Source: Gelidibacter maritimus (GTDB taxonomy: Bacteria > Bacteroidota > Bacteroidia > Flavobacteriales > Flavobacteriaceae). From it: a DNA stretch of 64,000 nucleotides. Every line of letters starts with the position of its first letter. The first letter of the stretch is position 1. The position numbers and the translations under genes were made by a program. The DNA lies in contig NZ_JACGLT010000001.1 of NCBI RefSeq assembly GCF_014062315.1, positions 372,001 to 436,000 of the forward strand. Direction: 5' to 3'. The notes below the pieces were generated by a model. It was not told where the DNA came from. It saw only the letters and a list, made by a program, of their open reading frames with translations, and ran no database searches. Positions 14,176 through 33,000 of this stretch are shown piece by piece.

Positions 14176-14289
14176 AATGACATTGCGCCAACGAGGACTA
14201 ACAAGAAAGGTAAGCCGCTTTGAAAGAACCAAAGCGTCTATACAACCATTCCAAGCTTCAATCCCCGAAAGCCTTATAGAATTACATGA

Positions 14290-14858: not shown

Positions 14859-15863
14859 TTAAATCTCATGTTTTAATGAGTCAATAAATGCATTAATAGC
14901 TGGATTTGAAGCACTATAACTCACAATTTTTACATCCAATGGGGTTTTTGAAAATTTGTCTATTGATTTTCTGATTGCATCAAAAATCCATTCATATCTA
15001 TTGCCAAAAGCACCACCACCAATTAATGTAAGGAATACTTTATTATTTCCTGTCCTATTATAGTTTTTCAAAGCGATATGAAAAGTAGCTTCATAGGTCG
15101 CTTCCAAAATCATTTTAGCAAACTCAGACCACAATTCGATTTCAATCTCCGAATAGGAAACGGGTAGGGCAGAGCAATAAACTTGGGTTATAGGATTCTT
15201 ATTTTTGTTTAAGGTAACTTCGGAATCCCATTGAACGCCTATTCTAAGTTTTCCTTTTAAAGATTCAAAATCATTTCCAGATTTAGATTTTATCTGTTGA
15301 GTAATGCTGGTGAGCCCTTTTCTAGTTGCAAGGGCATAACCATTTTTCATTTCCCAATGTTTATGTTTTTCATTTTCAAGTTCTATCCCGATATCATGTA
15401 AACAATCAATTTGTTTGGTTGATGTCTGTCCAATTTGTCCGTCAACGTTTACGAAATAATTCCGGAAAATTGTTCCTGCTCCACAAGCTATAGCACAAGC
15501 TGGACCCTGAGTACCGTCATATTCATAGATTCCAACACCTTCCTCGGGTGTGCTATCTGGGCTAACCATCTCTAAAAGGTTGAATTGTGATGCTACCTGA
15601 ATAAGTGCATTTTTGTTCGATGCCTCCTGATGAATATTCTGAATGTTTCCTACTATTTCAGAAATCTTAATTTCAGAATTATATTTATTTATTAAATCTG
15701 ATTCATTTCTCAATTCTTCTAATGATGGTGTTTCGAGCGAGCCAAATACAAATGCATGATTATTAACTTTTGAGATGAGTTGGTTGCCAACGATCTCAAT
15801 GTTTTTTCTTACCTGTTCAGGATTACTTTCCTTAAAACCTACTAATTTTTCAAACCACATCAT
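14859..15863 (-). CDS. Unknown protein with macrodomain/PARG-like features
   Basis: A 334-aa soluble protein. Residues about 105-140 read GIYEYDGTQGPACAIACGAGTIFRNYF and the C-terminal third contains VFLTLIGGGAFGNRYEWIFDAIRKSI followed by a strand VKIVSYS. The order (small-residue loop, then a hydrophobic strand into a GGGAFGN loop, then helix) recalls the phosphate-binding loops of macrodomain or PARG-like ADP-ribose hydrolases, but the match is weak. It stands alone at the left end of the defence island; an ADP-ribose or NAD-related role would suit that setting but is not established. Confidence 0.5.
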   Translation of the reverse strand: MMWFEKLVGFKESNPEQVRKNIEIVGNQLISKVNNHAFVFGSLETPSLEELRNESDLINKYNSEIKISEIVGNIQNIHQEASNKNALIQVASQFNLLEMVSPDSTPEEGVGIYEYDGTQGPACAIACGAGTIFRNYFVNVDGQIGQTSTKQIDCLHDIGIELENEKHKHWEMKNGYALATRKGLTSITQQIKSKSGNDFESLKGKLRIGVQWDSEVTLNKNKNPITQVYCSALPVSYSEIEIELWSEFAKMILEATYEATFHIALKNYNRTGNNKVFLTLIGGGAFGNRYEWIFDAIRKSIDKFSKTPLDVKIVSYSASNPAINAFIDSLKHEI

Positions 15864-15986
15864 TTGCTGATTTTTTATTATTTTCCACGTTTTTAATAAT
15901 TGTTTTTAAGATGAACAATTTTAAGCTTTTTTAAAAAAGAAAGCTATATTGCTATAAAAAAATAACAAGTTCGTATAGGTAGACTA

Positions 15987-16353
15987 TTATTTTTTAAGCC
16001 AGCAATGGGTTTTATCGGCTTCTAACCAATCAGGCTCCCATAAACTTCCTAAATATGAGCTTGTTACTTTAAAGTCTTTACTATATTTACCATTGAAATC
16101 TAAACATTTTTTTAGTTCCTCACAATACCATTTTACACCCCTATAATTCATAAACCCATAACATACTAAATCATCGTCTTCTTTGAAAGTTCCGTTGGGA
16201 GAATTCTTTCGATCCCTCCACAATATTTTTCAGAAATGAACTTTTTTGGGAATAATGAAATTGTAAGATTTTGGTTCTATGCTCAATTTGTTTGGTGTTA
16301 TTAATAAATATAGATTTTATAAGAGTGATAAATGTGGCTGTGTCGACTGCCAA
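15987..16353 (-). pseudogene. Possible frameshifted small gene
   Basis: Two overlapping minus-strand frames are each incomplete: one starting at 16353 (TFITLIKSIFINNTKQIEHR ...) that ends at 16171, and one covering 16223-15987 (WRDRKNSPNGTF ... KWYCEELKKCLDF ... WLEADKTHCWLKK) that lacks an ATG and has an upstream stop. A single-base shift near 16220 would join them into one product of about 115 aa. The second half looks like real protein (aromatic and Cys rich, charged). Family unknown; it could equally be two chance frames. Confidence 0.3.
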
Positions 16354-16470
16354 TTAATTCCTAAGCAATATCCTATTTATTATTATGGCATAGACTGCTC
16401 ATTTTTGGAAAATTCTTCTGAAAAAGGATTATATTTCAAATTTCCTTCTAACCCTTTTTTTTCAACCGTA

Positions 16471-19122
16471 TTAAGAGCTCATATTTTTTAATTCATTGTT
16501 TATTGTTTGAGCGGTAAATAAGTACAGTGCAATAAAATCTATAGCATTTTTTATTTGCTTATTTAAACCCATATCTAAACTCTCATGAGCTCCATTATGT
16601 CTTAATTGATCACTTAAAAATTTTAAACTATGTAAGATATAAGAGAAATTATTTTTCTGTTTATTAGTTCTGTTTTCTTGAAACTTGTATGTCCAGACCT
16701 CCTTAAAGTCTGTAAACGAATTAATGACGTCTACTTGTCCGCTAAACCTTTGATTCTCCAAGTCTGGGATAAAGCACTTTAAATAGGTTTCGTAGCCTAA
16801 TATCAATTTATTCAAACAGGTTTCTCGATCATAATAATCGGTTTTTGTGTTAAGCAATTCAAAAAGTGACTGAAGTAGAGAATCACCCCAACGCGATGGC
16901 TTACCATTTACATCTAAAATAGCCTCATAAAAAAGATCGAAATTATTAGCTAACACTGCTTTATTCATCTTGTACTGTCTTACCTCGGAGAACAATTCTT
17001 TTATTACTTTCTCTTTTAACAGTTCTCTATCATAAGCTAGTCTAACAGGAAAAGCCATATTACCTAATAGTTCTGTAGCTTCTTCCTTAACTTCTATATG
17101 TAATTCCTGGGGTTTGGGAAGTAAAGAGCGATCAAGAGATATCCATTTTTGATTATCAATGTCTTCTTTAATGAAAATTTCCCTCTCATCAAATATTTTA
17201 TATAAATAGGTTAATGAGGTGCGTTTGGGCAATAAATGCTTGGTCTCATCTTTTAAAGCGCTCAATTTAACCTTGTCATGACGCTTCAAGTAGTTAATAG
17301 CATGAGCTCTGATGTTTTTTCTGTATTCAGGCTCAACTTGCTTGCCCAGCCGATTTAAATCATGTTTTTCTAATTCTTCTGTATCTATGCTATAATAATC
17401 TTTTCCATTTATATTATTGTGTACTATAATTCCAGCATCAATAAATTTTTTCAGATAAGCATCAAATTTTTTAGTGGTGTTTATTGTTACCCCCGCATTG
17501 TTTAAAGAGGTCATTGTTTCAGATCGCAATGCTCTTTTTTCCTTTTTTTGGTCTCTATCGGATTCGATTATTTTAATCACAGTTTTAATGAAATCATTTC
17601 CAAAATATTGATTTTTTTTATTAACAACATTTATCTCTGGATATTGACCGAGGCAGTTTTCATGAATAAAAAGATTGTTATCGTCTATCGATTTTCTTGA
17701 ACAATTTAGAATATAAGCTCTTATACTACTGTCTGGATAGCCAGCATAATGAGTTGTATTCAAATATGATTTTAGAGTTTCAAACTCTACTTTTCCTTTA
17801 TACTTTTTAAAAATAGTGTCGTCTATAAAATCTTGTAATGTTTCTACATTTGTAATGCTATCTCCACTTATGGAAACCCAACGGCCAGATTTTCCTATAG
17901 GCCTGATTTTATCAGTTCGCCTAAACGTAAGTTGGGATATAGTAAGTTCCTTTAAACCAGCATCAGAAGCACGTTCATTATAGCTTTCTAAAATCGCTGT
18001 ATTATGCATGGAACCGTCTTCTTCTATAAGAATACGTTCAACTTTGGCTGTTACGGACGATAAATACTCCCATTTAAATTGGTATAAATCAGTGTTGATA
18101 TGGTCATCATCGTTATCAGAATCAATATCTCTAATCTCTAACTTAATATAGTCATCTAATAAGGCATCTAATATCTCTTTTTGTACCCCTTGAATTTTGA
18201 TTTCTTTGTTCTGAGTAGTTTTTAGTGATGGTATTTCTTTAGTTAATTTTTTTATGAGATCTTTTTTCTTGTAATATTTGCCTTCTCTAAAAACTTTATC
18301 GAATAATGTAAGATGCGAGCGGTATAATAATATGTCCTTCTTTTTGCTTAAAACGTAGTAATTATCTTGTGCTTGTTCTGAAGTTACTTCAATAAGATCT
18401 AGGCTGAAAATTGATAATAATTTTCTTATTATATCAGGATTTGGAAATTCATTATCACTGAAATTTTCCAAAAAATTAGACCGATAAAGATGAGTGTCAA
18501 AGACATTTTTTAGGTTGTTTAAGAATTGTGAATTAACCTTCAAACCATAACCTTTTTGTTCTTTCAAAAATAAAGATCGTAAGTCTGGTTTAGTTTTGTG
18601 GTCAAATAAATTAGTTCTAATATTTTCTGCTGTTTTGCCATATTTTTCACCAATTGTCTTAAATGACGATTCTTCTTGGCCATCCAGTCCGAAATAATGT
18701 GCAATATATTCAGATAATGGTAAAAAGGAATTAAATTCAGTTTTATCAAAAAAATGATGTGGTAGGCCGGCTTTTATTCTTAAAACGGATACAATTTCTT
18801 TTAAGCTATCTATCAGATTTGTAGCTAAACAGTCTACCGGTTCAAATCCTAATCCAATTTCAATAGGAGCGCAAAGTACATATTTGTAATAATTTAAAAA
18901 GTACTCGGGGTCATTTTGAGTTTTTATTTTAAAGGCATTAATAGTATCTCTAATTTTCTTTTTCTCATCCTGATATTCGTGTTCCTTTAGTCGATAAATA
19001 TCGAGTAACGAATAGTCTTTCTGAATGAGTACTTCAATTATAGACTTCTTCTTATCAAAAATAGCGCATAAATGTTTTTCACCTTGTATCTGGCTTAAGA
19101 TGTCTTTTAGATCTGGATTCAT
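16471..19122 (-). CDS. Large 883-aa protein of unknown function with HTH-like and HEPN-like segments
   Basis: I do not recognise the family. It is soluble, Lys/Asp/Glu rich and has no signal peptide. Residues about 150-185 (SSFKTIGEKYGKTAENIRTNLF) look like a sigma-region-4-type helix-turn-helix. The middle (about 250-660) seems to contain repeated winged-helix-sized units (ATAVERILIEEDGS-like, PIGKSGRWVSIS, ETLKSYLNTTHYAGYPDSSIRAYIL, KLSALKDETKHLLPKRTSLTYLYKIF). The C-terminal end has LRHNGAHESLDMG, similar to the conserved segment of HEPN/DUF4145-like helical domains. It is divergent from the WYL regulator, and a shared operator-like site lies 177 bp upstream. A WYL-repressed defence effector is a reasonable guess, not a finding. 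Confidence 0.7.
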   Translation of the reverse strand: MNPDLKDILSQIQGEKHLCAIFDKKKSIIEVLIQKDYSLLDIYRLKEHEYQDEKKKIRDTINAFKIKTQNDPEYFLNYYKYVLCAPIEIGLGFEPVDCLATNLIDSLKEIVSVLRIKAGLPHHFFDKTEFNSFLPLSEYIAHYFGLDGQEESSFKTIGEKYGKTAENIRTNLFDHKTKPDLRSLFLKEQKGYGLKVNSQFLNNLKNVFDTHLYRSNFLENFSDNEFPNPDIIRKLLSIFSLDLIEVTSEQAQDNYYVLSKKKDILLYRSHLTLFDKVFREGKYYKKKDLIKKLTKEIPSLKTTQNKEIKIQGVQKEILDALLDDYIKLEIRDIDSDNDDDHINTDLYQFKWEYLSSVTAKVERILIEEDGSMHNTAILESYNERASDAGLKELTISQLTFRRTDKIRPIGKSGRWVSISGDSITNVETLQDFIDDTIFKKYKGKVEFETLKSYLNTTHYAGYPDSSIRAYILNCSRKSIDDNNLFIHENCLGQYPEINVVNKKNQYFGNDFIKTVIKIIESDRDQKKEKRALRSETMTSLNNAGVTINTTKKFDAYLKKFIDAGIIVHNNINGKDYYSIDTEELEKHDLNRLGKQVEPEYRKNIRAHAINYLKRHDKVKLSALKDETKHLLPKRTSLTYLYKIFDEREIFIKEDIDNQKWISLDRSLLPKPQELHIEVKEEATELLGNMAFPVRLAYDRELLKEKVIKELFSEVRQYKMNKAVLANNFDLFYEAILDVNGKPSRWGDSLLQSLFELLNTKTDYYDRETCLNKLILGYETYLKCFIPDLENQRFSGQVDVINSFTDFKEVWTYKFQENRTNKQKNNFSYILHSLKFLSDQLRHNGAHESLDMGLNKQIKNAIDFIALYLFTAQTINNELKNMSS

Positions 19123-19412: not shown

Positions 19413-20414
19413 ATGGCAACAAACAAACATGCCCAGATTCGCTTTACTATCTTAGACCGTTGTTTCAGTAATTTTAATCGATTGTATACTTATGATAACT
19501 TACTTGACGAAGTAAATAATTATTTATATGAATTGGGAACAGAGGGCATCCGTCTGCGTCAACTTCAGTATGACATCGAGCACATGAAATCGGATGCTGG
19601 ATGGGCCATTGAATTGGATGACTCTTTAAGAAAGGGAAAGAAAAAGGCTTTTCGTTATCAAGACAAGAATTTCTCCATTGCTGACCATCCTTTAAATGTG
19701 GATGATCTGGAGCAGCTTGAGACCACTATCACCATTTTATCCCGATATAAGCATCGCGCTGAGTTTTCGTGGTTGGAAGAACTCATACCACGTATGAAGC
19801 AAGCATTCAATTTGGTGGCTGATGGCGATAACGGACTTATCGGCTATGAAGAAAATATCGATTTAAAAGGTCGTGAGCATTTAGGTACATTATTCAATTT
19901 GATTGTAAAACGCAAACAGATCAAATTAACCTATGAGCCTTATGGAAAACCGCCATTTGAGGAAGTAGTGCATCCGTATTATGTCAAACAATCCAATAAT
20001 CGCTGGTTTTTATTTTGCTTTAATCCGAGATATCAAACCATTTCAAATTACGCCTTAGACCGGATGGTGTCTATTGAGGAGTTAGCAGAAAAATTTGAGC
20101 CCAGCACCATCAATTGGTTGGATTATTTTTACGACATCATCGGGGTTACAAAACCCGAAGACGCCCAAATAGAAAAAATCCATTTAAAATTTTCCGAACA
20201 GCGCCTTCATTATGTATTGACCAAACCTTTGCATGGATCGCAGAAATTAGACCGTACCGATCCCGATGGTCGAACGGTAACAATTGAAGTATTTCCTAAC
20301 AAAGAGCTGTATCAGTTATTGCTGTCTTATGGTCCTGATGTTGAGGTGTTGGCGCCTGACGTAGTTAGAGAAGAAATCGCTTTAAGAATTAAAAATACGA
20401 ATACTATTTATTAA
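19413..20414 (+). CDS. WYL-domain transcriptional regulator
   Basis: A 333-aa cytoplasmic regulator. The N-terminal about 80 residues form a winged helix (RFTILDRCFSNFNRLYTYDNLLDEVNNYL ... RLRQLQYDIEHM), in the style of YobV/DeoR-like WYL proteins. Residues about 165-235 form the WYL ligand-binding domain (KQIKLTYEPYGKPP ... VHPYYVKQSNNRWFLFCFN ... NYALDRM), and the WCX extension follows (IHLKFSEQRLHYVLTKPLHGSQK ... IEVFPNKELYQLLLSYGPDVEVLAP). WYL proteins often regulate phage-defence islands (BrxR and CapW repress their systems). Its place at the head of the island next to repeated TGC-N9-GCA sites makes it the natural candidate for their regulator. Confidence 0.95.
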   Translation: MATNKHAQIRFTILDRCFSNFNRLYTYDNLLDEVNNYLYELGTEGIRLRQLQYDIEHMKSDAGWAIELDDSLRKGKKKAFRYQDKNFSIADHPLNVDDLEQLETTITILSRYKHRAEFSWLEELIPRMKQAFNLVADGDNGLIGYEENIDLKGREHLGTLFNLIVKRKQIKLTYEPYGKPPFEEVVHPYYVKQSNNRWFLFCFNPRYQTISNYALDRMVSIEELAEKFEPSTINWLDYFYDIIGVTKPEDAQIEKIHLKFSEQRLHYVLTKPLHGSQKLDRTDPDGRTVTIEVFPNKELYQLLLSYGPDVEVLAPDVVREEIALRIKNTNTIY

Positions 20415-20474: not shown

Positions 20475-21740
20475 ATGAAATCACAAATTACATGTCCAAA
20501 TTGCGAAACCCCTATTAATGTTAATGATGTTTTAAAGCATCAAATAGAAAACAGTATCCGGAAAGAATTTGCACTCAGAGAAGTTGAGGCCAAAAAAGTA
20601 TTGGATAAAAAGGAGGAACTATTGGCTCAAGAGAAATCGGAATTTTTAAAAGAGAAGGAACAAGCTGCCGAAATTTTTCAAGCGCAATTGGATAATGAGC
20701 TTAAAACTATGCTTGCAGTAAAAGAAGAGGAGCTTAAAAAGATACTTCAATCTGAAAGAGATGAGCAACTACAGATTTTAAATAAGGAGTTGGATGAGAA
20801 GTCAGAAAAACTTAAGGAGTTTAATAAAAATATAGCTGAAATCGAACGTTTAAAGCGTGAAAAGAATGAAATGGCAGCTGAGATAGAAGCGAAGCAGGAG
20901 CAGGTCTATAATCAGAAGTTAATAGAAGAACGAGAGAAAATAAAAAAAATGGTTGATGACTCTAACGAATTAAAAATAAAGGAATTTGAGAAGAAGTTAG
21001 CCGACCAGAAGAAGCTCATGGAGGAAATGCAGCGAAAACATGAGCAAGGTTCTATGCAATTGCAAGGAGAAGTATTAGAGTTGGCAATTGAGGAATGGTT
21101 GGTAAATCAATTCCCATTAGATACCATTGATGAAATAAAGAAAGGTGTTAATGGTGCCGATTGTTTACAGATTGTGAATACTCGAGAGTTACAGAATTGT
21201 GGCTCCATTTATTACGAAACCAAGCGAACTAAAACATTTCATCCATCTTGGATTGAAAAGTTTAAGAATGATATCCGCGATAAGAATGCCAATATTGGTG
21301 TGTTGGTTACTGAAGTAATGCCAGCTGATATGAATCGCATGGGAATGCGTGATGGGATTTGGATATGTACCTATGAGGAGTTTAAAGGTTTGAGTGCTGT
21401 ACTCCGCCAAGGAATTATTCAGTTGAGTACTGCTTTAATATCACAGGAAAATAAAGGGGATAAAATGGAAATGCTTTATGACTTTCTAACCAGCAATGAG
21501 TTTAAATTACAAATGGAAGGTATTGTTGAAGGTTTTTCGCAAATGCAAACTGATTTACAAAAGGAAAAAAATGCCATGAAGCGTATTTGGAAACAACGCG
21601 AAAAACAAATAGATAAAGTCATTTCAAACACGGTTCATATGTACGGCTCTATCCGTGGTATTGCGGGAAATGCAGTTCAACCTATCCTCGCATTGGAGTT
21701 GGATAGCGAAGTTTTAGAATTAAATAATAATATATTATAA
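20475..21740 (+). CDS. DUF2130 domain coiled-coil protein
   Basis: A 421-aa protein. It begins with a zinc-finger-like CPNCETPINVNDVL, continues with a long charged coiled coil (about 25-195, rich in Glu/Lys heptads) and ends with the DUF2130 domain at about 200-400 (GEVLELAIEEWLVNQFPLDTIDEIKKGVNGADCLQIVN ... IYYETKRTKTFHPSWIEKFKNDI ... NIGVLVTEVMPADM). The D ... YETKR spacing matches a restriction-endonuclease-like (PD-(D/E)XK) core, so nuclease activity is plausible. DUF2130 proteins occur often in defence and mobile regions. It has its own promoter (site B) and precedes the methyltransferase-kinase gene by 178 bp. Confidence 0.9.
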   Translation: MKSQITCPNCETPINVNDVLKHQIENSIRKEFALREVEAKKVLDKKEELLAQEKSEFLKEKEQAAEIFQAQLDNELKTMLAVKEEELKKILQSERDEQLQILNKELDEKSEKLKEFNKNIAEIERLKREKNEMAAEIEAKQEQVYNQKLIEEREKIKKMVDDSNELKIKEFEKKLADQKKLMEEMQRKHEQGSMQLQGEVLELAIEEWLVNQFPLDTIDEIKKGVNGADCLQIVNTRELQNCGSIYYETKRTKTFHPSWIEKFKNDIRDKNANIGVLVTEVMPADMNRMGMRDGIWICTYEEFKGLSAVLRQGIIQLSTALISQENKGDKMEMLYDFLTSNEFKLQMEGIVEGFSQMQTDLQKEKNAMKRIWKQREKQIDKVISNTVHMYGSIRGIAGNAVQPILALELDSEVLELNNNIL

Positions 21741-21918: not shown

Positions 21919-24465
21919 ATGGATAGTTTTGAGAATAAATTTTGGAATGTTTTAGACAGCATTCGAGGGTACAGAGATATAGGAGACCTTAAGGAGCTTT
22001 TTATTTCTTTAGTATTTTTAAAATTTGCCAACGATAGGTTTAATATTTCGTCATTCAGTCAAATTGAAGTACCTGATGCTGCGAAATGGAGCTTTTTACA
22101 TACCAGTTTAAATAACGTCGATTTTAGAAACCTTTTATGGAAGGCATTCCATGATTTAGAAAAGCAAAACGAAAGATTGAGCAATTCGTTTACTGTTTTT
22201 TACTTTGAGCGTAAGTTCAATAAAAACCCCGACTCAGAATTAGTTATAAAATTGTTTAGAGCAGTATCTGATTTCAACATTACCAAAGATGAATTGAAAT
22301 TCTCGGATGTTCTTGAAAATTTAGTTACTCATTTCGCTAGTTCGGTAGGGAGAGGAGTTGTCGATACTACTACACCTCAAACTATAACACAACTCCTGAT
22401 TGAGTTGTTAAACCCTGAAGATGGATCTGTTTTAGATTCTACTTGCGGAACTGGTGGGTTTTTTCAAAATATCAATGAAAAATTCCCGAAGGGTAATTTT
22501 AATTTTTACGGTCAAGAGAATAATTCTTCAATCTTGGCAATTGCAAAATTGAGGTTTGCATTTAATGAGAATGATAATATTCAATTTGGTAAGCCTACCA
22601 GTACATTAACCGACGATCAGTTTCCTGATTTAAAAGTTGATTATGTTTTAATGCATCCACCTTTTCATCCAAGGGTGATGGATAATGATATTCCTCCGAA
22701 TGATCCAAGATTTATATTTGGTTTACCTAAAAGAAATGCAAACTTGGTCTGGATTCAACATGCTATTTTCCATCTTAATAGTAAGGGGAAAGCAGCCTTA
22801 TTGCTTAGTAATAATGTCTTGAGTGTAGACGGAGGAGAGGGCGAAATAAGGAGAAACATTATCGAAGCCGACATGGTGGAAGCAATAATAACATTGCCTT
22901 CGCAATTACTTATTAACACGGGTGCTTTTACAAATATTTGGGTGTTAAATAAGAATAAATCGAAAAAGGGAAAAGTGTTATTTATTGACGCCTCTTCTTT
23001 AGGACATATGACTAATAGGTTTCAACGTGCCTTAAGCAATGAAGATATTCTACAAATTACTTCTCATTTTACCGCTAACCAGCAACACAATTCAAATTAT
23101 GTTGATAAGATAGGTTTTTCAAAATTAGTAAGTATTTCAGAAATTGCTGAAAATGACTTTCTGTTAAGCCCAGGACGATATTTGGATTACGAAGACTTAT
23201 TGGAAGTAGACTTGAATAATACGTTAGCCTTAGGAGATGTTTTAAGCTATATAAGGCCTGCGAGGCTAACTCCAGATACTACTTATTTGAAATTAGGTAT
23301 AAAAGATTTATCGTCAAGTCCGGATGTTTATTTACTAAATGCAGACAATTTATCCGTTTTGGAGAAAAATCTAAACTTTAATTCCTTAGATAATAATGTT
23401 CTTTTGGTATCGAGAGTTGGCAATAATCTAAAGCCAACGTTTCATGCATCAAGTAATAAAAAAATTGCTTACGTCAATATGTTTGCATTTAAGGTGGATC
23501 AAACGAAAGTAAGTATTGAATATTTAGTTGCAGAGCTTTATAAAGATTATATAAAATCTCAAATAGATAGTTTTAATATGGGTAGTGTTACGCCTATAAT
23601 TAGGCGTGAAGATTTTTTAAGAGTAAAAATGATAATTCCCGCTTCGTTAGAGGAGCAAAACGAAATTGTAAGTAGAGAAAAAGCTTTAAGGTTTCAATCT
23701 TTAGCAAAGGATTTAGGTTTCGAGAGAGAAATCGCTAAACTAAAGGCTGCACAAACTAAAGATTTAGGCTCCAAAAGACATAATATCATGCAACATCTTA
23801 ATAACGTGAAAGCATCGGCAGATGTGTTATCAAAAATGATGCAACTTAATAATGGAGTTTTAAGAGCCGATGAGATAATCGACCCGAGAAGAGGGATTAC
23901 GGTGGAAAAACGTTTACTTCGCTTGCAAGAAAGTTTAGAGACGGTTATATATTATGTAGATAATATTACCGATGAAATGATATATGGAGTTGCCGAAATA
24001 TTAAATCCTTTTAAACTTTTGAAAGGGTGCAAGGAGAGAGGGCTTCAGAGTGAGTGGTATTCGGTAGATTTAATTAATGAGAATCAGTCTTTTGAAGGTA
24101 ATGAGCCGTTAATAAATATTTCTAAAAATGATTTTGAAGAAATATATAATAACATTTTAGAAAATGCCATTAAGCATGGATTTGCAGATAAAAGTAAGTC
24201 GTACATTTTTCGGGTTTCTGTAGCTTATATTGACGATTTCTTAGAAATTAATTTCGAGAATAATGGAAAGCCATTCCCTAAAGGGATAGTTGAAAGGTAT
24301 AACGTAAAAGGAGAAAAAGCAGGAGCCACTGCTGGTACTGGCATCGGACTCTGGAAAGTTGCTGAAATAGCTAATCACTTTGATGCTAAGTTAGAAGTTT
24401 TTGATGAACCTACAAGTGATTTTCCTGTAGGTTTTAAATTTAAATTTACACTCCAAACACGATAA
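21919..24465 (+). CDS. HsdM-like methyltransferase fused to a specificity-like region and a histidine-kinase module
   Basis: An 848-aa soluble fusion. Residues 1-150 resemble the HsdM N-terminal helical domain (ENKFWNVLDSIRGYRDIGDLKELFISLVFLKFA in outline). Residues about 150-430 are the N6-methyltransferase: SAM motif I LDSTCGTGGFF is intact, but catalytic motif IV reads HPPF (His at 246) where active enzymes have NPPF. Residues about 435-605 look like a target-recognition half of a type I S subunit (GSVTPIIRREDFLRVKMIIP, EEQNEIV). A helical pair with KRHNIMQHLNN (H621 or H626 as possible phosphoacceptor) leads into a GHKL ATPase: N-box ILENAIKHG (N749) and GTGIGLW (806-812). The receiver-domain gene follows after 3 bp. 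It probably binds DNA and SAM and signals by phosphotransfer; this is inference. Confidence 0.88.
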   Translation: MDSFENKFWNVLDSIRGYRDIGDLKELFISLVFLKFANDRFNISSFSQIEVPDAAKWSFLHTSLNNVDFRNLLWKAFHDLEKQNERLSNSFTVFYFERKFNKNPDSELVIKLFRAVSDFNITKDELKFSDVLENLVTHFASSVGRGVVDTTTPQTITQLLIELLNPEDGSVLDSTCGTGGFFQNINEKFPKGNFNFYGQENNSSILAIAKLRFAFNENDNIQFGKPTSTLTDDQFPDLKVDYVLMHPPFHPRVMDNDIPPNDPRFIFGLPKRNANLVWIQHAIFHLNSKGKAALLLSNNVLSVDGGEGEIRRNIIEADMVEAIITLPSQLLINTGAFTNIWVLNKNKSKKGKVLFIDASSLGHMTNRFQRALSNEDILQITSHFTANQQHNSNYVDKIGFSKLVSISEIAENDFLLSPGRYLDYEDLLEVDLNNTLALGDVLSYIRPARLTPDTTYLKLGIKDLSSSPDVYLLNADNLSVLEKNLNFNSLDNNVLLVSRVGNNLKPTFHASSNKKIAYVNMFAFKVDQTKVSIEYLVAELYKDYIKSQIDSFNMGSVTPIIRREDFLRVKMIIPASLEEQNEIVSREKALRFQSLAKDLGFEREIAKLKAAQTKDLGSKRHNIMQHLNNVKASADVLSKMMQLNNGVLRADEIIDPRRGITVEKRLLRLQESLETVIYYVDNITDEMIYGVAEILNPFKLLKGCKERGLQSEWYSVDLINENQSFEGNEPLINISKNDFEEIYNNILENAIKHGFADKSKSYIFRVSVAYIDDFLEINFENNGKPFPKGIVERYNVKGEKAGATAGTGIGLWKVAEIANHFDAKLEVFDEPTSDFPVGFKFKFTLQTR

Positions 24466-24468: not shown

Positions 24469-25626
24469 ATGAGAAAATACGAGGTTTTATGGATTGATGA
24501 TGATGCTGAAAAACAAGATGCGTTTTTAGATTCAGCTTATTTAGAAGGTTTTAATATTACTTACTTTAAAACCTCTAAAAAAGGAATGGAGGAATTAACT
24601 TCTAAAATAGAACGGTATGATGCTGTTATTTTGGATGCTATGGTATTTAATGAGTCGGAAGATGAAAAAGCTGGATTAGCGGGTTTGCAAAATTCTATTA
24701 AAACAATTAACAATTTAGCACATTTTAAAAAAGTTCCGTATTTTATTTTCTCGGGTTATATAGATCAAGACGAACATTCTAGTGCGAGAGATATGTTGGC
24801 AGATGAAACTATTTTTATTAAAAGTAAAGATAACCACGCATTGTTTGCAGCGATTAAAAAAGCCGCCGATGCTCAAGAACTTACTCAGTTAAAACATAAA
24901 TACCCTAATGTTTTTTCACTCTGTAAAGATAATTATCTTGGTAGCAAACAATTTGATAGGATCCTGCAGCTTGTAAAAGATGTTGAGAATCCAGACTATA
25001 TATCTAACCAGCAAGATGCTTTGCCACCTATGCGTAAAATTTTGGAAGCTATATTTAGAAAATTGAATATTTTGGGATTAATCCCTGATGCAATTCAAAA
25101 TGGTCAGGGAGCAATTAATGGTGCCAGTATTTTTTTAGCGGGCAACAATAAGCACTATCTTTACAGGCAAGCGTTAATAGACCCTGTAGTTGCAGAGTCT
25201 ATCCGGCATTTAATTAGTTTAACGCAAGACGCATCACATAACGAAGGAAATAAATTAGGAACAGATACCTATTTAAGCAGTCGGACGAACAGCTTTTTAT
25301 ATCAATCATTATGCTATGCGTTGCTTGAAGTTTTAGATTATCTAAAACCATTTGTCGATGCTAATTCAGATAAAGTTGAAAACCAATCTAAATGGCAGTT
25401 AATTGAAGTTTCAAATATGGGTTCAGAACTTTGGATTAAAGGTAAGATTTCTAGAGTTGCTGATAACGGCTATGGAACTTTTCAACCAAATGAAGGAAGC
25501 TTTACGTTAACTATATTGCCAAATAAAATGGAGGAATATTCACTGACAGAAGACCAAAATATTGATGTTACAACAGAGCCTAGTCATTGTGGCACAAAAA
25601 CATATATAAAAGAAATAAAATATTAG
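24469..25626 (+). CDS. Response-regulator receiver protein with unknown C-terminal effector
   Basis: A 385-aa soluble protein. Residues 1-135 are a receiver domain with all active-site residues: D10-D12 in VLWIDDDAE, phosphoacceptor D56 in AVILDAMVF, S95 in YFIFSGY and K118 in IFIKSK. Residues about 140-300 are helical with LPPMRKILEAIFRKL and SLTQDASHNEGN, which recall HEPN/DUF4145-type domains; the exact RX4-6H RNase motif is not seen. Residues about 315-385 look like a small all-beta (OB-like) domain (ELWIKGKISRVADNGYGTFQP ... SFTLTILPN). No ordinary DNA-binding output domain is present. It is translationally coupled to the kinase-methyltransferase fusion and sits 11 bp before hsdM, so it is the likely phosphotransfer partner that acts on the restriction system. 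Confidence 0.85.
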   Translation: MRKYEVLWIDDDAEKQDAFLDSAYLEGFNITYFKTSKKGMEELTSKIERYDAVILDAMVFNESEDEKAGLAGLQNSIKTINNLAHFKKVPYFIFSGYIDQDEHSSARDMLADETIFIKSKDNHALFAAIKKAADAQELTQLKHKYPNVFSLCKDNYLGSKQFDRILQLVKDVENPDYISNQQDALPPMRKILEAIFRKLNILGLIPDAIQNGQGAINGASIFLAGNNKHYLYRQALIDPVVAESIRHLISLTQDASHNEGNKLGTDTYLSSRTNSFLYQSLCYALLEVLDYLKPFVDANSDKVENQSKWQLIEVSNMGSELWIKGKISRVADNGYGTFQPNEGSFTLTILPNKMEEYSLTEDQNIDVTTEPSHCGTKTYIKEIKY

Positions 25627-25637: not shown

Positions 25638-27179
25638 ATGATCACTGGAGAATTAAAACAGCAAGTTGACGCTATATGGCAAACCTTCTGGGAAGGGGGA
25701 GAGCCAAACACCATGACCATCGTTGAGCAACTCACGTACCTTATTTTTATCAAAGATTTAGATGAGACCGAAACGCGTAACGAACTTATGTTTAAACGTC
25801 TCAATAAGCCTTTCGAGCCTGTTTTTGATGAAAACCAGCAAGATTTTAGATGGAAAAATCTAAAGGAAATGGATGTGAGTCAACGATTTAATATTTTCGC
25901 AGATAATATCAATGGCATCTTTCCATTCATCAGAACGCTAGGGAAAGAAAAAAGCTTGTTTAGCACACACATGCGTGGTGCTAGCTTTAGCAATTATAAG
26001 GCATTGGTTTTAGATCAAGTTATTGAAAAGTTGGAGCGTATAGATATGTCTAACCAAGATGCGAAAGGTGATATCTATGAATATATGCTTTCCAAATTGG
26101 AGGGTGGCGGCACCTCTGGTCAGTTTAGAACGCCGCGCCATATCATTAAGATGATGGTAGAGCTGATGCAACCTACTCTAGAAGACACCATTTGCGACCC
26201 AGCTTTGGGAACAGCTGGTTTCTTAGTGGCAGCCAAAGAATATATAGATAAAAATCATGATGTAACCGAATTAGATAAATATCGAGATCACATTAACAAA
26301 ACGATGTTTAATGGTACCGAGTTTTCTTCTACTATGTTGCGTATTGCATCTATGAACCTGTTTTTGCACGGGGTGGAAGAACCCAATGTGATAGATGTTG
26401 ACGCCGTAAGTAAAGACAATGACGTGAGCGACGCATATACTTTAATTTTGGCCAACCCGCCGTTTAAGGGCACCATAGATAAAGAAAGTATAGCTCCCGG
26501 ATTGCGTAATGTGACCGACACCACCAAAACCGAACTTCTCTTTTTAGCCTTGATGCTGCGCCAACTTAAAAAAGGAGGACGTGCCGCAGTGATTGTCCCC
26601 GACGGGGTGTTGTTTGGAAGTGGAAAAGCCTATAAAAGCATTCGGTCAGAAATTGTGGCTAACCATAAATTGGAAGCGGTGATTTCTTTGCCCAGTGGGA
26701 TTTTTCAACCTTATTCTGGAGTAAGTACTGCCATTATTATATTCACTAAAACCGACAATGGCGGGACGGATAATGTGTGGTTTTACGACATGCAGGCTGA
26801 TGGGAAAAGCTTAGACCAAAAGCGAAATCTATTAGTCGATGCCGATGTGTTTGAGGCCTTCTCTTTTGGCGATGGTACCGATGAACTTTCAGAAGCTTTG
26901 CAAAAAGAACTGCACGAAAAGTTTAATTTACCGGATGTGATCCAACGCTTTGCAACGTTAAAAAATAAGAATACGCCAGAAACCGACCGCAAACGTACCG
27001 AACAGTCTTTTTTGGTGCCGTTTCAGGAAATAAAGGATAATGATTGGGATTTATCTATTAACCGCTATAAAGAGATTATTTATGAGGAAGTGGAATACGA
27101 TGCGCCTATGGAAATAATAGAAAGAATTAATCAATTGTCAAATGAGCGCATAGCTTTATTGGAAAAAATTAATCAATAG
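25638..27179 (+). CDS. hsdM: Type I restriction-modification DNA methyltransferase subunit
   Basis: A 513-aa M subunit that methylates adenine N6 in the recognition sequence together with HsdS. HsdM_N domain at about 1-140 (QVDAIWQTFWEGGEPNTMTIVEQLTYLIFIKDLDE in outline), then the methyltransferase. TSGQFRTPRHI precedes motif I DPALGTAGFL (usual Cys replaced by Leu), and motif IV is a proper NPPF with N273, unlike the upstream fusion. ITLIVPDGVLFGSG-type and PSGIFQPYSGVSTAI segments are standard. It is 4 bp upstream of hsdS. This is the likely active methylase of the locus. Confidence 0.97.
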   Translation: MITGELKQQVDAIWQTFWEGGEPNTMTIVEQLTYLIFIKDLDETETRNELMFKRLNKPFEPVFDENQQDFRWKNLKEMDVSQRFNIFADNINGIFPFIRTLGKEKSLFSTHMRGASFSNYKALVLDQVIEKLERIDMSNQDAKGDIYEYMLSKLEGGGTSGQFRTPRHIIKMMVELMQPTLEDTICDPALGTAGFLVAAKEYIDKNHDVTELDKYRDHINKTMFNGTEFSSTMLRIASMNLFLHGVEEPNVIDVDAVSKDNDVSDAYTLILANPPFKGTIDKESIAPGLRNVTDTTKTELLFLALMLRQLKKGGRAAVIVPDGVLFGSGKAYKSIRSEIVANHKLEAVISLPSGIFQPYSGVSTAIIIFTKTDNGGTDNVWFYDMQADGKSLDQKRNLLVDADVFEAFSFGDGTDELSEALQKELHEKFNLPDVIQRFATLKNKNTPETDRKRTEQSFLVPFQEIKDNDWDLSINRYKEIIYEEVEYDAPMEIIERINQLSNERIALLEKINQ

Positions 27180-27183
27180 AATA

Positions 27184-28353
27184 ATGAGTCAACTTATTCC
27201 GATAACTGAGATTTGCGATTTTCAAGGAGGTACGCAACCACCAAAAAACGAGTGGATAAAAGATCCCGAAGATGGATATGTAAGAATGCTTCAAATCAGG
27301 GATTTTACTCAGCCAGAAAAAAACAACGTTGAGTATGTTGTGCTTAAAAAGCATACTAAAACTTGTAAAAAAGAGGATATTTTAATTGGTAGATACGGTG
27401 CTTCTATTGGTAAAATTTGTACTGGATTAGAAGGTGCCTATAATGTTGCATTAATTAAAACCAAACCAGATCTAAAAAGAATAAATAGGCGATACTTATT
27501 TCATATTTTACAAAGTGTGTATTTTCAAAATTTTATTTTGTCTGTAGGTTCAAGGGCGGCGCAAGCTGGATTTAATAAAGAGGATTTGACAAAGTTCAAA
27601 ATCCCCCTGCCACCCCTAAAAACCCAACAGCACATCGCTCAAATTTTAGACGATGCCGCCGCCTTACGCGATAAAACCAAACAACTCCTCACAGAATACG
27701 ACTTGCTGGCACAGGCTATCTTTTTGGAGATGTTTGGGGATCCAGATTCATTTGAACATTTTACAATTGCAGAGGTAGCGGCAAAGGAAAGATATTCCTT
27801 ATCTAGTGGGCCCTTTGGATCTAATTTGACGTCGAAACATTATACTGAAAAAGGTATTGTTATTTTGAGAGGTACAAATGTAACATCTGGAATTTTAGAT
27901 CTTTCGAATGTTAAGTACGTGAGTGAGGAGAAAGCAGTTGAACTTAAACGGAGTGAAATAAAACCAGATGACGTAGTAATTGTAGCTGTTGGGTCATCGG
28001 GCAAAGCCTTGAAAATCCCTAGCACATTAAAACGTGCAATTATGTCTCAAAATTTTAATAAAATAACTCCTGATAGAAGTAAAGTTATACCATTGTATTT
28101 GGAGTTTTGTTTCAACAGTCAACTCGTTCAGAATCAGTTCAGAACTGAAATGACAGATACTGTTAGAACATTTCTCAGTCTAACAAAAATAAAGCAAGTA
28201 AAAATACCAATTCCACCCATCGAACTCCAAAACCAATTCGCAGAAAAAATAGCATTGATTGAACAACAAAAAGAATTAGCCAAGCAAGAGCTTAAAGAAA
28301 GCGAAGACTTGTTTAATGCGTTGTTGCAGAAGGCTTTTAAGGGGGAGTTATAG
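27184..28353 (+). CDS. hsdS: Type I restriction-modification specificity subunit
   Basis: A 389-aa S subunit with two target-recognition domains, each binding half of a bipartite DNA site. TRD1 at about 1-145 ends in KFKIPLPPLKTQQHIAQIL, followed by the central helix (LRDKTKQLLTEYDLLAQAIFLEMFG). TRD2 at about 190-345 ends in IPIPPIELQNQFAEKIALIE with the distal helix to residue 389. The matching conserved helices set the half-site spacing. It directly follows hsdM; a 139-bp gap with a palindrome separates it from the AlbA_2 gene. The target cannot be predicted by eye. Confidence 0.97.
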   Translation: MSQLIPITEICDFQGGTQPPKNEWIKDPEDGYVRMLQIRDFTQPEKNNVEYVVLKKHTKTCKKEDILIGRYGASIGKICTGLEGAYNVALIKTKPDLKRINRRYLFHILQSVYFQNFILSVGSRAAQAGFNKEDLTKFKIPLPPLKTQQHIAQILDDAAALRDKTKQLLTEYDLLAQAIFLEMFGDPDSFEHFTIAEVAAKERYSLSSGPFGSNLTSKHYTEKGIVILRGTNVTSGILDLSNVKYVSEEKAVELKRSEIKPDDVVIVAVGSSGKALKIPSTLKRAIMSQNFNKITPDRSKVIPLYLEFCFNSQLVQNQFRTEMTDTVRTFLSLTKIKQVKIPIPPIELQNQFAEKIALIEQQKELAKQELKESEDLFNALLQKAFKGEL

Positions 28354-28360
28354 AAATCGA

Positions 28361-28419
28361 TCCCGATAGTTATCGGGAGAAATTGAAATTGAAAATGATC
28401 TTGATAGTTATGGGGAGAA
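28361..28419. repeat. Palindrome with degenerate second copy
   Basis: TCCCGATAGTTATCGGGA at 28361-28378 is an inverted repeat with perfect 8-bp arms and a 2-bp centre. A diverged copy (GATCTTGATAGTTATGGGGA) follows at 28397-28416. It lies just past the hsdS stop and could act as a 3'-end hairpin or be a small repetitive element. Confidence 0.6.
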
Positions 28420-28454
28420 AATAAAAACAGTAGCTGTGCAACGAATACTTTGAA

Positions 28455-28486
28455 TTGCCCAAAATACAGATACCATAGTATCTTTA
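28455..28486 (+). promoter_or_regulatory. Promoter before the AlbA_2 gene, with weak operator-like sequence
   Basis: TTG at 28455-28457, a 21-nt spacer, and TATCTTTA at 28479-28486 fit the Bacteroidota TTG/TAnnTTTG layout one base off consensus. The spacer holds ACAGATACCATAGTA, similar to site A read on the minus strand, but the inverted-repeat spacing differs, so membership in the shared regulon is doubtful. Confidence 0.4.
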
Positions 28487-28492
28487 TAAATT

Positions 28493-29956
28493 ATGACGGA
28501 AACAAGACTACAAGAATTAATAAATCAGGGAGAAGGGACGCAATTAGAGTTTAAAGAGGCGAGTATTGGACTTAATAGAGACGCTTTTGATTCTATTTGT
28601 GGGTTTTTAAACCGTAGTGGTGGGTATCTTGTTTTAGGTGTAAATGATAATAAAACGATTACTGGGGTACAGGAAAATCAAGTACAAAACATTTTAGATA
28701 ATATTGTTACCAGCGCGAATAATCCAGAGCGTTTAAATCCGCCGTATTACCTATCGCCGGAAGTGGTAGAAATAAACGGCAAAAAGCTTATTGTAGTTTA
28801 TGTGCCAGAAAGTTCACAGGTGCACGCCACACGCGGAAAGATATTTGATCGCAACCAAGATGGCGATTTTAATATTTCAAAAAACTCAGATTTGGTCGCT
28901 CAATTATATTTGTCTAAACAAAATAGCTATTCAGAAAATCAAGTATTTCCCTATGTTCAGATTTCAGATTTCAAACCAAGCCTTTTTGATAAAGTAAGAA
29001 ATCTGGCCAGAAGCCAGCAACCTTCGCATCCATGGTTGGAAATGGATAATGAAGAATTGTTGCGTTCTGCAGGATTATTTAAGCGCGATATGAAAACAGG
29101 AAAGGAAGGTTTTACACTTGCAGCTGTCTTGCTTTTTGGTACAGATGTTTGCATACAGAACGTGTTGCCACACCATAAAACAGATGCTGTCCTGCGTGTT
29201 ACAAACACAGACCGCTATGATGATAGAGACGATGTGCGTACCAATATAATTGAGAGTTATGAACGTTTAATGGCGTTCATTGCAAAACACTTACCTGAAA
29301 AGTTTACGATTATTAATGGGCAACGAGTTAATGTACGTGATCATCTTTTTAGAGAGATTATAGGTAATTTATTGGTTCATAGAGAATACACCAATCCCTT
29401 TCCTGCAAAGTTGATTATTGAAGAAAATCAAGTGCGAACCGAAAACTGGAATAAACCCCATGGTAGCGGGACGATAGACCCTGCTAATTTCTCGCCATTC
29501 CCTAAAAACCCTGTCATTGCGAAATTTTTTAAAGAAATAGGTTGGGTGGATGAGTTGGGTTCTGGTGTGCGTAATACCTACAGATTGCTTAAACTCTATA
29601 CTCCAGGAGCGGAGCCTACCTTTACAGAAGGCGATGTGTTTAAAATTATAATTCCAATAGAAGAAACGAATGAAGGTGTAACTATAAAAGGTTCGGAAGA
29701 AACGTCGGTAGAAGCGTCGGTAGAAGCGTCGGTACAAACGTCGGGAAAAGAATTATTGAAGGGGGTTGTAAAAAGTTCAGATAAGATTATAAAATTAATG
29801 CTCTTTAATAAGTATATAACCATACCGGAGCTTGCTGAACTAGTAGAAATAACAGAACGCAGCGTGGAACGTAACATAGTAAAACTAAGAGAACAAGAAA
29901 AAATTGAACGCATAGGTTCAAAAAAAAGTGGATATTGGCAAGTAATTGATAGATAA
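28493..29956 (+). CDS. AlbA_2 (Schlafen-like) ATP-binding protein with C-terminal winged helix
   Basis: A 487-aa protein common next to type I restriction genes. The AlbA_2 domain is at about 5-130 (EGTQLEFKEASIGLNRDAFDSICGFLNRSGGYLVLGV in outline). The middle carries a HATPase_c_4-like region (LFREIIGNLLVHREYTNPFPAKLIIE ... GSGVRNTYRLLKLY). The last about 70 residues are a winged helix (TIPELAELVEITERSVERNIVKLREQEKIERIGS). Before it sits a short TSVEASVEASVQTS repeat encoded by a 12-bp tandem repeat. It may act as a nucleic-acid-binding regulator; its exact role in such loci is not known. Confidence 0.9.
   Translation: MTETRLQELINQGEGTQLEFKEASIGLNRDAFDSICGFLNRSGGYLVLGVNDNKTITGVQENQVQNILDNIVTSANNPERLNPPYYLSPEVVEINGKKLIVVYVPESSQVHATRGKIFDRNQDGDFNISKNSDLVAQLYLSKQNSYSENQVFPYVQISDFKPSLFDKVRNLARSQQPSHPWLEMDNEELLRSAGLFKRDMKTGKEGFTLAAVLLFGTDVCIQNVLPHHKTDAVLRVTNTDRYDDRDDVRTNIIESYERLMAFIAKHLPEKFTIINGQRVNVRDHLFREIIGNLLVHREYTNPFPAKLIIEENQVRTENWNKPHGSGTIDPANFSPFPKNPVIAKFFKEIGWVDELGSGVRNTYRLLKLYTPGAEPTFTEGDVFKIIIPIEETNEGVTIKGSEETSVEASVEASVQTSGKELLKGVVKSSDKIIKLMLFNKYITIPELAELVEITERSVERNIVKLREQEKIERIGSKKSGYWQVIDR
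29702..29745 (+). repeat. 12-bp in-frame tandem repeat in the AlbA_2 gene
   Basis: Units built on GCGTCGGTAGAA, about 3.5 copies with small changes, encoding (T/A)SVE/Q repeats in the linker before the winged helix. Gain or loss of a unit keeps the frame and would change linker length. Confidence 0.8.
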
Positions 29957-29967
29957 TAAATAATAAC

Positions 29968-30000
29968 GTCGGTATTGTGTCGGTATTGTGTCGGTGTTGG
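29968..30000 (+). repeat. 11-bp tandem repeat upstream of hsdR
   Basis: Three units of GTCGGTATTGT (the third slightly changed) lie between the AlbA_2 stop and the hsdR start. The GTCGGTA core is the same as in the 12-bp repeat 220 bp earlier. Slippage would change the leader length of hsdR rather than its frame. Confidence 0.75.
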
Positions 30001-30036
30001 GTTGGAGAATATTGATTGAAATTAAATTTTAATAGA

Positions 30037-33000
30037 ATGAATTCAAATTTCCAGTTTCTTAAAAGTGAGTTTACCACGTTTTTTGATCGGGCGGTTAAAG
30101 CTGAACAAACGGCCATTACCGATCCGCGTACCTCATTGGTCTATAGTCGAATGGCGTTGGAGGAAGCCATTAATTGGATGTACGCCAACGATGCCGAATT
30201 GGAAATGCCTTATGACACGACTTTAAACAGTCTGATGGTGCAGATCCAGTTTAAGAAACAGTTTAATCATAAACTCTATAATGACCTTCACATCATTCGC
30301 AAAACAGGCAACTTTGCTACGCATAATAAACCGGTTAATGATGTGGACGCCCTCAATGTCATTGATGCCTTATTTTATTTTGCCAAATGGATTGGCAGAT
30401 CTTATGCTCAAGACGGTTATCAAGATCCTGGTATATTTGACTTTGAACGTATTCCAAAAGAAGGTCCCAATGCGCTTTCCAAAAGACAAATTGGGCAACT
30501 ACAATCACAACTTGATAAGGAACTCAATACCTATCAAGCCCAACTAAAAGCTAAAGAAGAGGAACGGCAACAACTTGCTGATGAAAATGAACTCTTCAAG
30601 AAGCGTATTGACGATCTCCAGGCCCAATTAGAAGCCAATAAATTAGAAGCCAATAAGGCAGATGAGGTTCAGCATCCACGTAACGAAGCAGAAACCCGAA
30701 AATATATCATAGACCTTGCTTTGCGTGAAGCAGGATGGGAGTTAAATGGTATTAACGATAAGGAATACAAGGTGCAGTACATGCCAAAATCGACCAACAA
30801 ATCGGAGACGGGCTATGTGGATTATGTGCTTTGGGATGATGACGGCTTACCCTTGGCACTTGTAGAGGCCAAACGGACATTGGAAAGCGTGACCAAAGGC
30901 GAAAATCAAGCACAACTTTATGCAGACAGTTTAGAAAAAATGCATGGGCGTCGTCCTATTATGTACTACAGCAATGGGTATGAAATCTATTTATGGGATG
31001 ATCAATTTTATAAGCAATCCCGCCCGGTTCACGGGTTTTATACCAAAGCCGAATTGCAGACCGCTATGTTCCGCCGTACCCATCGCAAAGACATTCGCCT
31101 GGCACCCATCGATACCGAAATAGCAGGACGAACCTATCAAATGCGTTCCATTAAAAGTATCGCCGAACATTTTGCCGGCACCGACAAAACCGATGGCAAA
31201 TTGATCGGCACCAATAGGGGAGCGTTATTGGTACTCGCCACCGGAACGGGGAAAACCAGAGTATCCATTGCGTTTTCAAAGTTGATGTTGGAATGCAATT
31301 GGGCAAAACGGGTCTTGTTTTTGGCTGATAGAACCAGCCTTGTAGATCAAGCCAAACGTAATTTTGTAAAGTTTCTGCCTGAACATACCAGTGTCAATTT
31401 ATTGGAGGATAAGGATAATCCGGATGCACGTTTTGCTTTTTCAACCTATCAAACTATGATGCGATTGATCGATGGGAGTCGTGACGAAGAAGCACGTTTT
31501 TATGGTGTTGGTCACTTCGATTTAATTATCATTGATGAGGCGCACCGTTCCATTTATAAAAAATACCAGGCCATATTTGAGTACTTTGATGCGTTGTTTT
31601 TAGGATTGACCGCAACACCTATTGAAAGAATTGATAGAAACACCTATCAAATGTTTGGATTGCCAGATCAATCTCCTACCGATGCTTACACCTTTGATGA
31701 AGCAGTGGCCAATAAGCATTTATCGCCTTACAGAACGATTACTTTGCCTACTCAATTTCTTACCCATGGTATCAAATACAGTGAGCTTTCGGAAGAGGAA
31801 AAGGAAGAGTTTGAAGAGGAAATCTTGGATGGTGAAGAAGCAACAGGTAATGAATGGATTTCTTCGTCCGAATTGAATACCTGGTTGTTTAATAAGCCTA
31901 CCGCCATTGAGACCTTACGCTATGTTTTAGAACACGGCATTAAAAAACGAGGAGGTGACGAGCTGGGTAAAACCATCATTTTTGCTAAAAATCAAAAGCA
32001 CGCCCAGTTTCTGAAGGATGTCTTTATGGAACTTGATAAAGAATTGTTTGGTAATGACTATGTCAAAGTGATCACTCATAATGAGCCCAAAGCTCAAGAA
32101 TTTATCAATCGGTTTTGCGATGAGGAAAAGGATCGACTTCCACAAATTGCAATCTCAGTTGATATGATGGATACGGGTATTGATGCACCCAGTTGTGTGA
32201 ATTTGGTGTTTTATAAACCTGTAAAATCTTATGCCAAGTTCTGGCAGATGATTGGTAGAGGCTCACGTTTACGTCCCGATCTATTTGGGGTAGGCGAGGA
32301 TAAATCGCATTTCTTGATTTTCGATCTCTGTGGTAACTTTGAGTTTTTTGAAGAAAACCCTAAAGGTATTGATGGAAGCACCCAAAAGAGCTTAACTGAA
32401 ATTTTATTCAGCCTGCGATTGCAATTGGCAGAATATCTGAAAAGCCCTCAATTTAAAGAGAATACAGATTTACAAGAGTTTAGAACAGAACTTTTGGATG
32501 GTCTGCATCACGAAATAGCATCCCTGGTCCTCGAAAGGTTTGATGTCAAAATGAAATTGGAAATCGTCCACGAATTTGGAAATGACAACCGCGAAATTTG
32601 GAACCATCTTTCTAAACGCGATATCAAGCGTATAGAAGATGAATTGGCACCTATGGTAAAGCCAAAACAGGGGGATAGCGATCTGGCAAGATACTATGAC
32701 AAGTTAATATATACTTTGATCACTAAGCGTTTGGAAACCCCAAATAACGAAGAATATGTCAAGGGGTTTATCATTCCAATTTCCAAGGTGGCATCCACTT
32801 CCAAGAAGTTATTGAAGAAAACGACCATTCCTGCAGTGAAGGCTAAGGAGAACCTTATTAAAATGCCATTGGAAGAAGAGTTTTGGAAGGTGGATGGGAT
32901 CGCACATTTGGAAAAGTTAAGAAAAGGTGTGCGCGAATTGGTAAAGTATATGGATCCAGTAGATCAGCGTTATGTTACGACGAATTTTGTCGATTCTATA

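Follow-up and report, generated by a model that had tools for sequence, protein, structure and literature searches.

The fusion gene and its protein

The stretch of DNA analysed here (the window) comprises 64,000 nucleotides from Gelidibacter maritimus (contig NZ_JACGLT010000001.1, positions 372,001 to 436,000). At positions 21919–24465 of its plus strand it encodes a protein of 848 amino acids in which an HsdM-like domain, an HsdS-like recognition domain and a histidine kinase are fused (N6_Mtase, 1.5e-67; HATPase_c, 3.9e-09; profile matches in the Protein Data Bank, PDB). The gene is followed by that of a predicted response regulator and by type I restriction genes.

The N6_Mtase domain (PF02384) covers residues 127–426 (22297–23196) and scores 228.6 bits against a Pfam cut-off of 20.4. 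It contains motif I of the S-adenosylmethionine (SAM) site, DSTCGTGGF (D173–F181, residues 173–181; 22435–22461), which an earlier note on this DNA had described as kept and which is conserved in the alignment of the window's clade, as is the acidic residue of GQE/GQD. The domain is followed by a single HsdS-like target-recognition domain at residues ~430–590 (23206–23688), recognised by Pfam and by PADLOC and profile comparisons, with a Methylase_S match at residues 512–585 (0.0016) that falls under the Pfam cut-off. Next come a stretch with the predicted phosphoacceptor His621 (23779–23781), a column in which all 36 fusions of the family described below have His, and the ATPase domain HATPase_c at residues 738–846 (24130–24456; Pfam and alignment), which scores 37.4 bits against a cut-off of 26.4 and has the N and G boxes. 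A profile built from eight relatives matched HsdM chains in the PDB (3khk, 1.5e-76; PacII 7vru, 9e-62), HsdS chains (5ybb_D and 3okg, about 3e-10) and the sensor kinase VanS (1.4e-05). An AlphaFold model of the kinase from the single sequence had a predicted local distance difference test (pLDDT) score of 31.8 and was not used.

Loss of the catalytic Asn in motif IV

The codons at 22651–22665 (atg cat cca cct ttt) specify Met-His-Pro-Pro-Phe, residues 245–249, with His246 in the place of the catalytic Asn, and a re-reading of the sequence confirmed the earlier note in this as well as in the intact NPPF (N273) of the adjoining HsdM. The fusion thus has HPPF where active gamma-class N6-adenine methyltransferases have NPP(F/Y/W). 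The earlier note had named Asn in all closest homologues as the sign of a local mutation. Alignment with the four closest relatives, which are 54–70% identical to the window fusion, gave HPPF, HPPF, HPPL and SPPL, and the codon at the His246 site is CAT in two of them (L005 and L006; loci are given L numbers), CAC in L008 and AGC, for Ser, in L007. The motif IV residues of the clade, window included, are H, H, H, H and S, and the aromatic position also varies between F and L. Because relatives at 54–70% identity share the loss of Asn, HPPF is neither chance, a local mutation nor a sequencing error.

Motif IV of the gamma class is typically NPP(Y/F/W) according to a published statement, and in the published passages on PacII the double pocket mutants N276A/F279A and N285A/Y288A impaired methylation (PMC9613975); a loss of catalysis in the HPPF protein fits both. 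The fusion may still bind SAM, to judge from the motif I and acidic residue retained in its clade, yet 27 of the 36 fusions are without a strict motif I; its recognition domain suggests that it binds DNA. The sensor role that the earlier note had proposed for the methyltransferase domain gains from the finding that Asn is lost throughout the clade (5/5) and again elsewhere in the family, from the fused kinase and from the adjoining receiver gene. His as such is not conserved at the site.

The fusion family

Relatives were collected from one species-genome scan, from profile searches of 397 genomes of the family, 296 of the order, 345 of the class and 345 of the phylum (partly overlapping) and from one plasmid record; the range covered was Bacteroidota by profile, together with the scan of close relatives and the plasmid and phage collections. 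After wider regions had been fetched, the family set consisted of 36 proteins longer than 600 amino acids that match the C-terminal profile. All 36 lie within Bacteroidota, judged from named relatives, this being the only phylum covered by the profile searches. The family-level scan gave 16 matching genomes, and the long fusion was present in 11 of the 397. Weaker matches to part of the profile, of which L049–L053 were inspected, were not counted as fusions. The fragments L160 (broken) and L161 (short contig) and a later find, L178, stand outside the 36; L005, L143 and L144 are inside though incomplete, and L148 and L149 are near copies of each other. The second Asn of the N box is present in 35/35 fusions, L144 stopping before the site.

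The motif IV residue of the 36 fusions is N in 13, D in 6, H in 4, S in 3, A, T and I in 2 each, and V, Y, E and K in 1 each. In the same aligned column Asn is found in 25/25 HsdMs encoded at the same loci, and 27/27 further HsdM loci, read with a pattern permitting N, H, D, S or T, show N. Strict motif I and Asn occur together in 0/36 fusions as against 47/52 control HsdMs, a joint count in which 27 of the 52 controls had been preselected for NPP, so that for Asn only the 25 same-locus HsdMs are unbiased; the remaining five controls keep Asn and miss the strict motif I pattern. By this pattern 9 fusions have motif I without Asn, 13 have Asn without strict motif I and 14 have neither. With a less strict pattern many of the fusions that keep Asn would count as having motif I, and they may thus still bind SAM. 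The family as a whole is not claimed to be catalytically dead, since 13 members retain Asn and their motif I, of the type NPFAGxAS, may bind SAM.

On a tree of the 36 fusions the Asn switches between kept and lost at least 7 times, 6 of the switches being forced by starred branches; such counts are blind to the direction of change, and some long branches are uncertain. Shuffling of the labels on the same tree gave a mean of 10.8 changes, so the Asn label recurs and is also clustered. Ratios of nonsynonymous to synonymous substitution (dN/dS) in three pairs of the window's clade were 0.14–0.19 for the methyltransferase domain, 0.11–0.23 for the recognition domain and 0.07 for the kinase part, values that are rough because dS is near saturation. 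Such purifying selection indicates that the methyltransferase domain is maintained, most simply for binding and not for standard catalysis.

The predicted partner response regulator

The gene at 24469–25626 (plus strand) encodes the predicted cognate response regulator, for which profile, alignment and model indicate a receiver, a helical domain and a C-terminal OB-like (oligonucleotide/oligosaccharide-binding) end. The predicted phosphoacceptor Asp56 (24634–24636) and Lys118, the residue pair expected of a receiver, are conserved in 36/36 aligned regulators, a set that includes those of L160 and L161 and excludes the contig-cut regulator of L005. The family profile matches the receiver 3jte at 1.6e-05, and the model of the window protein compares with receivers at Z of about 12 over residues 1–142. 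The mean pLDDT of this model is 59.6, with 54–84 per ten-residue block over the receiver; the receiver alone was interpreted, and the fold comparison barely covers residues past ~142. The window regulator had no Pfam match at an expectation value (E) of 0.01.

The helical domain behind the receiver has an invariant Arg and His in 33/33 aligned rows. In a search of 149 genomes with this middle domain, 6/6 clear matches adjoin kinases of this kind; a further 10 matches were weak (E 2.8e-4 to 0.0065). An OB/cold-shock-like C-terminal end is present in many regulators, with weak Pfam matches in 3–4 of 36. Two of the 36, by sequence L140 and L143, have SLFN_AlbA_2 instead (best match 1.9e-16), so the output domain appears exchangeable. 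Among the Pfam matches listed for the regulators there is no known DNA-binding output domain. An exchangeable output that is Schlafen-type in two regulators hints at a direct effector over a transcription factor. The R, E and H of the middle domain align with the N-terminus of HsdR, where a DUF4145 domain lies; DUF4145 has been described as a HEPN family (PMC3710099). An identity of the middle domain as HEPN/DUF4145 is not claimed, hhalign having given an E of 0.28 and a probability of 0.2, and DUF4145 is absent among the matches listed (25 of 32 Pfam families) for the 36 regulators.

Gene neighbourhood

The fusion is preceded in the window by genes for a WYL/WCX-domain transcription factor (19413–20414; WYL 8e-12, WCX 2.4e-15), a frequent partner upstream of the kinase, and for a DUF2130 protein (20475–21740; 7e-73), which has the same place in L151. 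A gene of DUF2130 size with a similar N-terminus by eye lies just behind the regulator at L007 (12790–14058), and L008, L133, L135 and L138 have genes of DUF2130-like size, judged by size only, behind the regulator. Downstream of the regulator a type I restriction system occupies 25638–33537, with an HsdM of 513 amino acids recognised by Pfam and motif (25638–27179), an HsdS with two recognition domains (27184–28353; Methylase_S 2.5e-24 in two stretches) and an HsdR with an N-terminal DUF4145 domain (30016–33537; ResIII 5.3e-36, EcoEI_R_C 2.5e-21, DUF4145 1.8e-07). Also encoded within this operon (28493–29956) is a protein of the Schlafen/AlbA_2 type that matches HATPase_c_4 and HTH weakly. 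All these genes are on the plus strand.

The regulator gene stands directly after the kinase in 35/35 loci that reach it, counting the contig-cut regulator of L005 (L144 ends earlier). A WYL gene lies at most two genes away in 27/36, upstream on the same strand in 24 and adjacent on the opposite strand in 3. Type I genes flank 26/36 loci: HsdM and HsdS are downstream in 22, HsdM alone is downstream in two (L154 and L159), and the genes are upstream in two (L140 and L153). Seven loci are without contiguous type I genes (L130, L131, L134, L145, L152, L157 and L158), and the contigs of L005 and L144 end too early for a call. In L140 (5986–10683) and L143 (2438–6683) the receiver-AlbA_2 regulators are followed by genes for a McrB-like AAA protein and McrC, and L143 has this McrBC in place of type I genes in view. 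These neighbourhood counts were read by eye from BLAST comparisons with a small seed set, and missed distant homologues would raise them. A second trio with kinase and regulator in the window's own genome (L002/L132; L132 is G000:C16, 11185–14873) has NPPF in its kinase and its own type I genes downstream.

Further genes were noted around the operon. A protein of 588 amino acids without a Pfam match (33616–35382) has SGKSG, RDEDQ and SATP stretches like those of a helicase-type ATPase, by eye, and the trios of L006 and L132 have homologues of it nearby (72–74% identity). Three large genes at 39394–47671 resemble, again by eye, a helicase-nuclease set of the RecD/RecC/RecB type, and a tRNA-Ser lies at 49200–49285. 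The GC fraction is 0.31–0.34 at 16–24 kb and about 0.32 at 36–48 kb; it is 0.36–0.39 in the flanks and 0.36–0.39 over the restriction genes at 24–36 kb. The region 16001–48000 is possibly a genomic island.

Among 72,556 plasmid records, 3 contained the regulator, all of them from Myroides. One of 50,697 records of a phage collection matched, the unverified gut scaffold MT835483.1 (L178), which carries the whole module at 6855–17723 in the order WYL, kinase, regulator and HsdM-, HsdS- and HsdR-like open reading frames, the last two by eye; its kinase has CPPF in motif IV and keeps the H box. Upstream of the module lie what we take to be conjugation genes. The record is filed as Bacteriophage sp. 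and is perhaps an integrative element and not a phage. A scan of viral contigs with two short patterns confirmed no relative, and with this unverified scaffold as the single match in the phage collection a viral origin of the module was rejected.

Proposed function and alternatives

The fusion is probably a methyltransferase-derived, non-methylating sensor kinase that signals to the receiver protein, a core that the decoy and guard explanations below have in common. Its input module would be half of a type I methyltransferase complex, with one M and one S-type domain in a single chain, most likely unable to methylate. The stretch behind the recognition domain, as in HsdS, would continue into the kinase helix with His621, so that opening and closing of the M-S clamp could alter kinase activity, a route to His621 suggested by the domain order. 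Phosphate would then pass from the kinase to Asp56 of the receiver protein, whose gene begins 3 bases further on; the other domains of the regulator would serve as the output, and expression would be set by the WYL protein. DNA that enters the clamp, as an invading or wrongly modified site, is the likeliest ligand, with a DNA-mimic anti-restriction protein as the main alternative; DNA alone as the ligand is given a little less than an even chance. As a tentative proposal, which we hold possible rather than probable, the three genes (WYL regulator, pseudo-methyltransferase histidine kinase and receiver effector) would form a self-contained module that serves Bacteroidota for defence or alarm. 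Its phosphorelay would use former restriction machinery to sense foreign DNA or anti-restriction proteins and would fire an exchangeable output; the module would travel with islands and plasmids and lie next to type I or McrBC restriction genes or stand alone.

Several observations weigh against the sensor-kinase interpretation. On the side of the kinase and regulator, HisKA has no Pfam match in the window fusion at E 0.01, and Pfam Response_reg matches just 4/36 regulators, the window's not among them. The fold list that contains the receivers also gives small G proteins at Z of about 11 and arginine decarboxylase at Z of 11–12; with so few Response_reg matches, residues and profile carry as much weight as fold in the receiver call. 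A PDB profile search with the middle domain of the regulator gave no credible match. As to catalysis, the 13/36 relatives that retain Asn possibly still methylate. Ser and Asp are found in motif IV of other amino-methyltransferases, so with S in 3 rows and D in 6 only 14/36 rows have a residue foreign to the motif. The seven loci without contiguous type I genes, and L143 with McrBC, mean that control of an adjacent type I system is not a general feature. The recognition domain of the sensor is never closest to the HsdS of its own locus (0/26 loci in which the HsdS matches were ranked), so the sensor apparently does not read the sites of the neighbouring restriction system; the idea that it does was dropped as unsupported.

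The decoy explanation differs in the ligand: a dead M-S module would bait DNA-mimic anti-restriction proteins such as Ocr and ArdA, and their binding would switch on the kinase and, with it, an output that is suicidal or acts as a second line. According to the published passages, the type I core PacII M1M2S is bound by Ocr and ArdA in competition with DNA (PMC9613975); Ocr sets off PARIS, and inhibition of EcoprrI by Stp sets off PrrC (PMC9122126). A bait would need the fold and not catalysis, it need not share the specificity of HsdS, and trios without adjoining restriction genes (L131 and L134) suit it. Two facts speak against it: L140 and L143 adjoin McrBC, which to our knowledge is not a target of Ocr, and the motif I retained in the window's clade would be superfluous for a bait. 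The decoy is regarded as unlikely.

Less likely still is a guard with the same kinase-receiver core, in which the fusion assembles with HsdM, HsdS and HsdR or monitors their state on the model of PrrC and EcoprrI, a precedent described in the published passages (PMC9122126). The type I genes beside 26/36 loci agree with it, whereas the trios without contiguous type I genes, one with McrBC only, do not. The restriction-modification partners also differ between near relatives: identity to the window's HsdS is 35% for the HsdS of L007 and 28% for that of L008, and the HsdM of L006 has 707 amino acids against the window's 513.

That the fusion is a still-active methyltransferase, with His or Ser standing in for Asn and the kinase an add-on, is improbable. 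The retained motif I and acidic residue of GQE/GQD, the purifying selection on the domain and the Asn of the 13 relatives are in its favour, but the PacII double pocket mutants N276A/F279A and N285A/Y288A are impaired in methylation in the published passages (PMC9613975), and the aromatic residue varies in the clade too. A decaying, non-functional gene is very improbable: the L005 copy from Gelidibacter has its first part out of frame (9001–9215, the rest being open) and the L160 copy is broken, but dN/dS is 0.07–0.23 over nine domain comparisons in the clade, and open frames with the same partners occur in distant genomes.

If the proposed sensor kinase is real, a histidine kinase would read DNA, or a viral mimic of DNA, through a retired methyltransferase, restriction would be tied to two-component signalling, and how a cell reports that its restriction is under attack would become testable. 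On this reading proteins annotated only as 'N-6 DNA methylase', such as that on a Myroides plasmid, can be kinases, so the assignment of methylomes to genes may go wrong at such loci.

Comparison with known systems

The fusion resembles type I HsdM/HsdS (PDB 3khk, 7vru PacII, EcoR124) in its M domain and S-type recognition domain and differs from them in having M and S in one chain, one recognition domain, the loss of Asn in the clade and an added histidine kinase. With classical two-component systems (receivers of PmrA, KdpE and PorX) it shares HATPase_c, a predicted phosphoacceptor His and a receiver with Asp56 and Lys118, whereas the input is methyltransferase-like and the regulator has no known DNA-binding output domain in the scans. 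Detocs brings two-component logic into phage defence with a sensor and effector architecture which, by description, is unlike that of the fusion. PADLOC gave no Detocs model for the 36 regulators (5 families in all) and none among the matches listed (25 of 45 families) for the kinase. A methyltransferase of the EcoRII type has been reported, in the published passages, to repress even when catalytically inactive, only with methylated sites (PMC12707154), an example of regulation in which a methyltransferase senses methylation and needs no catalysis; this enzyme acts as a direct repressor, whereas the fusion would work through a kinase. PARIS and PrrC/EcoprrI are second-line defences tied to restriction, and the published passages on them, unlike the system described here, name no histidine kinase or receiver (PMC9122126).

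PADLOC, Pfam and NCBIfam scans of the window fusion name its parts only, and a methyltransferase-histidine kinase fusion appeared in no title or abstract among the matches listed, in literature largely without subscription papers. We found no published description of a methyltransferase-derived sensor kinase beside restriction genes. The nearest published relatives found are proteins near BREX that combine a Schlafen RNase, a minimal histidine kinase and a winged helix-turn-helix domain (PMC12839542). In the published passages they join Schlafen to a kinase-like ATPase, as does the window gene at 28493–29956, and they differ from the fusion in having no methyltransferase domain and in being a single protein where the fusion system has a sensor and a receiver (PMC12839542).

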